Positions 4,458-6,873 of a stretch of DNA of 9,127 bases are shown piece after piece. The translations under genes were made by a program, and so were the position numbers. Source of the DNA: Deltaproteobacteria bacterium (GTDB lineage Bacteria > JAUYMQ01); assembly GCA_030698575.1 (NCBI GenBank), contig JAUYMQ010000160.1, positions 1 to 9,127 on the forward strand. The letters run 5' to 3'. The number at the start of each line of letters is the position of its first letter. Within the stretch, counting starts at the first letter, position 1. The notes under the pieces are model-generated. The model saw nothing but the letters and a program-made list of their open reading frames with translations, was not told the origin of the DNA and searched no databases.

Positions 4458-4493
4458 GGCCCGCGGGGGGCGTTTCGCGTGCCACTAAAACGA

Positions 4494-4525
4494 CGGCCCC
4501 GGGTGCTCCGGGGCCGCCTCTTTGT
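4494..4525. terminator. Bidirectional intrinsic terminator between glycosyltransferase and tRNA-Pro
   Basis: CGGCCCCGG (4494-4502) and CCGGGGCCG (4508-4516) form a perfect 9-bp stem with a five-base loop. On the plus strand it is followed by CCTCTTTGTT, ending the three-gene operon. On the minus strand it is followed by TCGTTTTAGT, ending the tRNA-Pro transcript, whose mature 3' end lies 28 bases upstream of the stem. Confidence 0.85.
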
Positions 4526-4543
4526 TCCGCTGCTGTGCTGAAG

Positions 4544-4620
4544 TGGTCGGGACGACTGGATTTGAACCAGCGACCCCCTGCTCCCGAAGCAGGTGCGCTA
4601 CCAGGCTGCGCTACGTCCCG
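4544..4620 (-). tRNA. tRNA-Pro (anticodon CGG)
   Basis: Read on the minus strand this is a complete 77-nt cloverleaf. The acceptor stem pairs CGGGACG with CGTCCCG. The D arm is GCGC/GCGC with AGCCTGGTA in the loop. The anticodon stem CCTGC/GCAGG encloses loop TTCGGGA, which gives anticodon CGG and decodes CCG. The variable loop is GGGTC. The T arm GCTGG/CCAGT carries the invariant TTCAAAT. Discriminator A and a genome-encoded CCA (4546-4544) complete the 3' end. No integrase or duplicated tRNA end is visible to suggest use as an integration site. Confidence 0.97.
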
Positions 4621-4674
4621 AGAAGGCATTTCCGGCGGAGAAATCCGCAACTGAAACCGACGTGAGAGGCCTGC

Positions 4675-4703
4675 TAGGTAACATGGGCTCCGGGGGGTGT
4701 CAA
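4675..4703 (-). promoter_or_regulatory. Promoter of tRNA-Pro
   Basis: On the minus strand a perfect -35 TTGACA (4703-4698) is followed after 17 bases by TACCTA (4680-4675), a weak -10. Transcription would begin near 4668, about 48 bases before the mature tRNA 5' end, leaving a leader to be removed by RNase P. A perfect -35 with a C-containing -10 is common for stable RNA promoters. Confidence 0.6.
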
Positions 4704-4727
4704 GCAACCCTTCAACCTGACCGGAAC

Positions 4728-4811
4728 TGTCGATAACCGCCTGAACCCGCGGTTCGCGTCGCCTTTCTGCCCCCGATTATGTGGATAACGTTGTTGATAA
4801 ATTGTTGACAG
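4728..4811 (-). other. Cluster of DnaA boxes in an AT-rich patch
   Basis: Within the gap of about 300 bp between tRNA-Pro and the kinase gene, the minus strand carries a perfect consensus DnaA box TTATCCACA (4788-4780). It also carries two one-mismatch boxes, TTATCAACA (4800-4792) and TTATCGACA (4736-4728), and a weak match CTGTCAACA (4811-4803). All face the same way, and the last three are spaced 12 and 11 bp, about one helical turn. The stretch from about 4776 to 4820 is clearly richer in A+T than its surroundings. Such clusters occur at replication origins and at DnaA-regulated promoters. There is no dnaA, dnaN, parA or rep gene in view. The rest of the gap holds the tRNA promoter, the kinase promoter and its probable untranslated leader. 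Confidence 0.6.
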
Positions 4812-4834
4812 AAGTGATAGGCTCCCGCTACGCG
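4805..4834 (+). promoter_or_regulatory. Possible promoter of the histidine kinase operon
   Basis: A perfect TTGACA (4805-4810) lies at the edge of the DnaA-box cluster. The best -10 at the right distance is TACGCG (4829-4834, 18-base spacer), which is poor, so the promoter may need an activator or another sigma factor. It overlaps the weakest DnaA-like site. It would start transcription near 4840, so the GTG at 4840 is a poor start candidate, and the ATG at 4930 would have a leader of about 90 nt. Confidence 0.35.
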
Positions 4835-4929
4835 AAAACGTGAGTCCGGCGCCCCGAACCACGGCGCCGGCAGGGCAATCCCTAGCTTCCCTGGCCTTCC
4901 TGGCAGGAGTTTGCGAGGTAGCGCGCTCG

Positions 4930-6873
4930 ATGTCACCCCCCCCGACTCGAACGCCCGCCAAGCACACGGCCCTCCGGCGGCTGGGCGCCGCTCTCGGCCG
5001 GCAGCGTGGCGAGATTACCGAAGCCTGGACGGAGCGGATCCGGAAGTCGATCCTCGGCCGGCGGCTGGCTGGCGATCCGGCGCAGGGTGTGTCTGGTGAT
5101 CTCGCGACGCGCAGCTTCGACGCCTTTCAACGCGCCCTCTCGGGCTCACCCCGCGCCTTGCGCGCGGCACCCCTCGCTCCCTTCAAGGAACTTCTCGCCG
5201 CCTCAACCGCGGACGCCGCAGGCTGGTGCAGCGCGCTCTTCGACATCTGCCGCGATGCCCTCGACGCAGACCATGAGATCCCTCCCCGGGATCTCATCGC
5301 GTTCCGGAACCGGCTCCTGAACCTCCAGGAACGCGTCCAGACCGCCCTCGTCCTGCACGCATCCGCCGCCATGAGCCGGGAGGTCCAGGCGGGCTGCGAC
5401 CGCGACATGCAGTCGCTGCGCATGGAAGCGCGCGCCGCTCGCGAGAGCTACCGGAACCTCGTCGAACGGCTCGATGAAGCAATCTTCACCCTGGACGTGC
5501 GGGGCCGGTTCCGATCGGCGAGCGGTCGGGGGCTCAGGACGCTGGGGCTTACCGAGAAGGAGCTGCTCGGGAAACCCATCACGGCCGTCATCCCCCGGTC
5601 TTACCGGGAGCAGGTCCGCGATCTGCGGTCTTTGCTTCTGCGAGAGAAGCGCCTGCGCGGCGTGACGATCAAGGTGGAGAACGCGCGGGGACGGGAGATC
5701 ATCCTGGAGGTCAACGCGTCGCTCCTCGAGGAACGGGGCCGGCCGGTCGGCGCGCTCGGAATAGCCCGGGACGTGACCTCGCGCGTGCGACTGCAGGAGC
5801 AGGTGCGTGAGTCGCGGGACTATCTCGAGCTGCTCGTCGAAAGCTCTGTCGACGGCATCATCGCGTGGAGCTCCGAGGGCGGCATCACGTTCTTCAGCCG
5901 GGGCGCTGAAGAGATCTTCGGCTATGCATCGGGCGAAGTCCTTCACAAGCCGCTGAGCGCCTTCTTCAGCCTCCCGGAGGGCGGTCACGAAGATCTCTTC
6001 CGGCAGATCAAGGCTGCCGGGGGCCGGCTGCGCGACAGGGAATGCGTCTGCCGCGGGCGGGACGGTTCGGAGATAAAGGTGAGCTACTCGGCCGGGTTCC
6101 TGCACGACGACGCCGAGGAGATCATCGGCGCCATCGCCGTGTGCAAGGACATCACGGACACCCGCCGGCAGGAGGAGGACATCCGCGCGAAGAACGAGGA
6201 ACTGGAGGCCTACGCCCGGACGGTGACCCACGATCTGCGCGGGCCGCTCGTTTCGATCCACGGCTACGCCTCCCTCATGGAGGAGGTCCTCGGCACGCGC
6301 GTTCCGGAGAGTGTGGCTTATTACCTGAAGCGAATTCACGAGAACGCCGGCACGATGGGTCGGCTGATCTCGGACGTGCTCGAGTACTCCACCGCCGGCC
6401 GGCAGAAGGGCACGCCCTACTGGGTGCGTCTCACCCAGGTCCTCGGCAGCCTCGCCCAGGAGATGAAGCCCCAGTTCGACCAGTCCGGCGTGCGCATGGA
6501 AATCCAGCGGCCCATGCCCCAGGTGCTGGGCGACGAGACGCGGCTACGGCAGGTCTTCTCCAATCTGGTCACGAACGCCCTGAAGCATCTCGGCGGGTCG
6601 CGGGATCCCCTCATCGAGATCAGTGCGGAGGCCTCCGAGCGCGGCCACACGATCTGCGTGGCGGACAACGGCCCGGGCATTCCCCGCAAGGAACAGGCGC
6701 ACATCTTCGATCTCTTTTACAGCCGCGCTGCCCGGAGCGGGGAGAATGGGTCGGGCATCGGGCTGGCCATCGTGAAAAAGACCGTGGAATCTTGCGGCGG
6801 TCGCGTCTGGGTCGAGAGCGAATCAGGACGCGGCTGCCGCTTCTTCGTTTACTTTCCGGAAACCCAGAACTAG
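4930..6873 (+). CDS. Soluble PAS-PAS sensor histidine kinase
   Basis: This 647-residue protein has no signal peptide or membrane segment, so it should sense a cytosolic signal. The N-terminal helical region (about 11-145; LGAALGRQRGEITEAWTERI near its start) resembles the RsbRD-type N-terminal domain of stressosome proteins, a tentative match. A helical linker follows (150-175). PAS 1 (about 174-285) ends GIARDVTSR; PAS 2 (about 297-412) ends AVCKDITDTRR. Next come the dimerisation/phospho-acceptor helix with THDLRGPL (His434) and the ATPase domain: N box NLVTNALKH (545-553), G1 VADNGPGIP (577-585), F box FDLFYS (593-598) and G2 GSGIGLAIV (607-615). No receiver domain is fused and no response regulator is adjacent. 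The ATG at 4930 has GAGG 11 bases upstream. An in-frame GTG at 4840 would add 30 residues but lacks a ribosome binding site. Confidence 0.93.
   Translation: MSPPPTRTPAKHTALRRLGAALGRQRGEITEAWTERIRKSILGRRLAGDPAQGVSGDLATRSFDAFQRALSGSPRALRAAPLAPFKELLAASTADAAGWCSALFDICRDALDADHEIPPRDLIAFRNRLLNLQERVQTALVLHASAAMSREVQAGCDRDMQSLRMEARAARESYRNLVERLDEAIFTLDVRGRFRSASGRGLRTLGLTEKELLGKPITAVIPRSYREQVRDLRSLLLREKRLRGVTIKVENARGREIILEVNASLLEERGRPVGALGIARDVTSRVRLQEQVRESRDYLELLVESSVDGIIAWSSEGGITFFSRGAEEIFGYASGEVLHKPLSAFFSLPEGGHEDLFRQIKAAGGRLRDRECVCRGRDGSEIKVSYSAGFLHDDAEEIIGAIAVCKDITDTRRQEEDIRAKNEELEAYARTVTHDLRGPLVSIHGYASLMEEVLGTRVPESVAYYLKRIHENAGTMGRLISDVLEYSTAGRQKGTPYWVRLTQVLGSLAQEMKPQFDQSGVRMEIQRPMPQVLGDETRLRQVFSNLVTNALKHLGGSRDPLIEISAEASERGHTICVADNGPGIPRKEQAHIFDLFYSRAARSGENGSGIGLAIVKKTVESCGGRVWVESESGRGCRFFVYFPETQN

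Follow-up and report, generated by a model that had tools for sequence, protein, structure and literature searches.

What is a cluster of DnaA boxes doing in a stretch of a deltaproteobacterial genome that carries none of the genes usually found at an origin? Bacterial origins of replication (oriC) combine an array of DnaA boxes with an unwinding element, and usually lie near dnaA. The window considered here is the whole stretch of DNA analysed (9,127 nucleotides), which is the entire contig C291 of a 4.13 Mb assembly in 653 contigs (91.6% complete, 4.6% contamination). An earlier note on this DNA described one perfect, two one-mismatch and one weak box in a single orientation, and proposed that they might represent a relocated or atypical oriC, a site that titrates DnaA, or a means by which DnaA controls the neighbouring kinase operon. 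Our analyses favour the last of these roles, retain titration as a rival and speak against the origin. The boxes themselves are as described, all on the minus strand:

4728-4736, minus strand: DnaA box 1, TTATCGACA, one mismatch, some 25 bp upstream from the -35 of the candidate tRNA-Pro promoter
4780-4788, minus strand: DnaA box 2, TTATCCACA, perfect
4792-4800, minus strand: DnaA box 3, TTATCAACA, one mismatch, overlapping the candidate kinase -35
4803-4811, minus strand: weak fourth site, CTGTCAACA, three mismatches, between the -35 and -10 of the putative kinase promoter

The cluster lies between two divergent genes, one for tRNA-Pro(CGG) and one for a PAS histidine kinase. Box 2, box 3 and the fourth site are arranged head to tail with start-to-start spacings of 12 and 11 bp, confirming the reported interval of about one helical turn between neighbours. 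Box 1 is set 52 bp apart and is the least convincing of the three good boxes, having a G at position 6, and was graded weak. The AT-rich patch that had been noticed here is genuine, with 35-45% GC across approximately 60 bp, and the least stable 50-mer of the window lies at 4775; yet it is modest by the standards of its own genome, since 11 of 85 other stretches contain a less stable 50-mer.

The improbability of several near-consensus 9-mers falling together by chance, which the earlier note had asserted, is upheld by shuffling. There are no other sites with zero or one mismatch in the window, and three such sites anywhere were seen in just one of 200 dinucleotide shuffles of its whole length. 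When the intergenic region (4621-4929) was shuffled 20,000 times, three boxes never fell on the same strand, and 50,000 shuffles of the AT-rich patch (61 bp) never yielded two boxes with an exact one among them. From the density of boxes observed, approximately 0.00023 same-strand triples are expected genome-wide. The cluster, with at least two near-consensus TTATCCACA boxes lying closer together than chance would place them, is real, non-random and statistically secure. We therefore regard as very improbable the view that an AT-rich patch resembling a promoter produced the boxes by chance and that DnaA has no role here. Box 3 does lend it something, in that TGTTGATAA includes a -35-like TTGATA and part of this box is thus explained by the promoter, but the pair was never reproduced from the same patch and the perfect box forms no part of a -35.

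Such an arrangement is rare within the genome. The assembly contains four perfect TTATCCACA sites and approximately 190 one-mismatch boxes, scarcely above a reversed control, and just one of the four exact sites, namely box 2 of the window, is accompanied by another TTATNNACA no more than 30 bp away. No inverted box pair was found in the assembly. A weight-matrix scan covering 697 kb of contigs from the same genome returned no other cluster composed of strong boxes, its highest-scoring alternatives being sums of weak sites, and a search of the assembly for further clusters with a lenient pattern added an array on contig C116 and a poor site on C467, where the control gave two matches. Strict uniqueness of the tandem array in the assembly was abandoned because of the C116 array (4520-4550), which reads TTATCCCCA-AG-TTATCCACC-GG-ATATCCACC and is weaker than the cluster in the window. 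It lies shortly past the 3' end of a ParB-like gene (4593-5441, minus strand) on a contig of 5.8 kb, and is possibly the origin of a mobile element or plasmid. Elsewhere, a lone perfect TTATCCACA at 4674-4682 of C353 lies between coaE (minus strand) and, on the plus strand, a gene resembling chorismate mutase/prephenate dehydratase, with a good promoter (TTGACA...TAGGAT) approximately 30 bp downstream of the box. Exact-word matches in viral contigs, and plasmid matches with E about 1, were set aside as uninformative.

The host encodes, on contig C355, a DnaA with the standard means of recognising DnaA boxes: domain IV is intact (PF08299, 4.7e-31) and carries the box-recognition motif GGKDHSTVIHA. 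Tandem TTATCNACA pairs occur in 54 of 290 other bacterial genomes, far exceeding a reversed-pattern control, in which they were rare. Among 30 loci retrieved, 16 contain dnaA and/or dnaN and one more contains rpmH, and these are therefore dnaA/oriC loci; approximately 40% of the 30 lie elsewhere, for example at ftsA-ftsZ, nusA, serS and coaX. In one genome (G004:C30, around 1500), tandem perfect boxes lie between ftsA and ftsZ. Given the excess over the control and the association with dnaA, dnaN and rpmH, boxes repeated in tandem at this distance are, as a class, genuine DnaA sites, and the array is a real type of DnaA site, found mostly but not invariably at the origin, of which the window supplies a further instance. 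Conservation was sought among relatives with little return: phylum-wide and relatives searches retrieved no near kin, 80 EF-P loci (best EF-P identity 58%, in Acidobacteria) lacked synteny, and 29 distant kinase-homologue loci had no three-box cluster, a result of little weight at about 30% identity.

Could the cluster nonetheless be the chromosomal oriC, moved away from dnaA? More than half of the tandem pairs retrieved from other genomes accompany dnaA/dnaN or rpmH, the assembly has no other strong cluster, and the rpmH-dnaA interval is missing from it, so that a standard oriC is not seen. However, the genes expected to flank an origin are found elsewhere, in intact blocks that both break where oriC would be expected. 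Contig C355 breaks off within dnaA and carries the end of that gene, then dnaN, then gyrB; contig C345 begins inside rpmH and continues with rnpA, yidD, yidC, jag, rsmG, parA and parB. The standard rpmH-dnaA interval thus falls in the gap between the facing ends of the two contigs, and a search with the dnaA ATPase domain did not recover the N-terminal part of dnaA from the assembly. That interval is the commonest arrangement of oriC in bacteria, and because the contigs end inside its usual flanks, a standard oriC is probably to be sought in the unassembled gap. None of the usual origin genes (dnaA, dnaN, rpmH, gidB, parAB) is present in the window, in agreement with the earlier statement that no replication gene adjoins the cluster. 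GC skew shows no change of sign across the 9-kb window, in a genome where skew is weak throughout and the contigs are too fragmented for cumulative skew. Nor is there a DnaA-trio-like run after the boxes, where the minus strand past box 2 reads TAATCGGGGGC, or a separate AT-rich unwinding element, the low-stability DNA being confined to the box patch amid stable, GC-rich surroundings. We conclude that the cluster is unlikely to be oriC, and a displaced origin of this kind seems to us highly improbable. More generally, the strongest cluster of DnaA boxes in a fragmented genome is not necessarily its origin. The true origin region may be absent from the contigs, and origins assigned automatically in such genomes can therefore be wrong.

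The surroundings of the cluster suggest a different role. Its neighbours and their promoters are as follows:

4492-4518, minus strand: terminator-like hairpin, 3' of tRNA-Pro
4544-4620, minus strand: tRNA-Pro (CGG), left of the cluster
4675-4703, minus strand: candidate tRNA-Pro promoter, -35 TTGACA (4703-4698), 17-bp spacer, -10 TACCTA (4680-4675)
4794-4823, plus strand: candidate kinase promoter, read from sequence, -35 TTGATA (4794-4799), 18-bp spacer, -10 TAGGCT (4818-4823)
4930-6873, plus strand: soluble PAS-PAS-HisKA-HATPase histidine kinase, likely start ATG 4930 behind GAGGT

A GTG at 4840 was rejected as the kinase start in favour of this ATG. Downstream of the kinase are a gene for a SAM hydroxide adenosyltransferase and then a TPR gene. 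The -35 first suggested for the kinase, TTGACA at 4805-4810, has no acceptable -10 and gives way to the better TTGATA, inside box 3. In 697 kb of the genome's own contigs, TTGACA-N16-18-TAnnnT, and particularly TAGnnT, is sharply enriched at sigma-70 spacing, and the candidate TTGATA-N18-TAGGCT matches this promoter grammar; its -10 agrees with TATAAT at three of six positions and a strict consensus promoter scan makes no call. The same contigs indicate that the housekeeping promoter of this lineage takes the form TTGACA-N17-TAGnnT instead of TATAAT. Box 3 sits on the -35 of the candidate promoter, the fourth site falls in its spacer and box 2 is immediately upstream. Within the presumed 5' leader of the kinase, a GC-rich CCGGCGCC...GGCGCCGG stem without a T-run is present on the plus strand at 4846-4870; the leader folds no better than shuffled sequences (z -0.91) and matches no Rfam family.

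The sequences of the boxes, their arrangement, their rarity in the genome and their overlap with a promoter of matching pattern were all observed directly. On the strength of these features we are inclined, with modest confidence, to view the cluster as a DnaA-binding regulatory site serving the divergent region between tRNA-Pro(CGG) and the orphan PAS histidine kinase. DnaA would first occupy the perfect box 2 and then spread cooperatively to box 3 and the fourth site. Because box 3 covers the -35 and the fourth site lies in the spacer, bound DnaA should block the kinase promoter by excluding RNA polymerase, such that high levels of active DnaA would lower kinase expression. Box 1, upstream of the tRNA-Pro promoter, might offer an additional contact and might also affect tRNA-Pro. 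Occupancy, cooperativity, repression and any role in the cell cycle are what we infer for this site. The 11-12-bp direct repeats at the -35 (TGTGGATAACG / TTGTTGATAAA / TTGTTGACAGA) could instead be bound by another transcription factor, for instance a response regulator of the OmpR/PhoB type. Their period over a -35 is typical of such regulators; TTGTTGA is moreover repeated exactly at 4791 and 4802. But the best of these repeats is a perfect DnaA box and the window has no response regulator gene, and we think this quite unlikely.

If DnaA does control the kinase, this uncultured lineage would have a signalling pathway coupled to its replication cycle, a connection resembling that of DnaA with GcrA in Caulobacter and with Sda in Bacillus. 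A bolder reading, which we advance with considerable doubt, is that DnaA directly represses the orphan soluble PAS kinase, and perhaps tRNA-Pro, so tying signalling to the replication cycle; bolder still would be a cluster that is the true oriC, displaced from dnaA.

Known systems offer three comparisons. Like bacterial oriC, the cluster has TTATCCACA-type boxes repeated in tandem on one strand every 11-12 bp, an arrangement also seen near dnaA in other genomes; it departs from oriC in having no separate unwinding element, no origin genes and, within the window, no skew switch. It is also like datA of E. coli, whose box cluster neighbours a tRNA transcription unit and places one of its boxes over a promoter (PMC10950094). 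This likeness, together with its standing as the strongest cluster in the assembly, would suit a site that titrates DnaA or modulates its activity, akin to datA, DARS or the Bacillus DnaA-box clusters, and binds DnaA without regulating its neighbours. We consider that unlikely: the good boxes number only three, box 3 lies directly on a promoter element, and datA follows its tRNA operon and depends on IHF binding at a site of its own (PMC10950094), whereas the window cluster lies upstream of the tRNA gene and no IHF site was identified in it, no IHF motif being known for the host phylum. DnaA control of the kinase promoter has its closest parallels among DnaA-regulated promoters, which include dnaA and nrdAB in E. 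coli and gcrA and ftsZ in Caulobacter (PMC8203912). The target here would be a different one, the orphan PAS histidine kinase, tRNA-Pro(CGG) or both, neither of which was found among the DnaA targets in the parts of that source drawn on here. The same parts describe repression of nrdAB by high DnaA-ATP, presumably through exclusion of RNA polymerase (PMC8203912). The feature shared by such promoters, several DnaA boxes at or over the promoter, recurs in the window at what is a candidate promoter.
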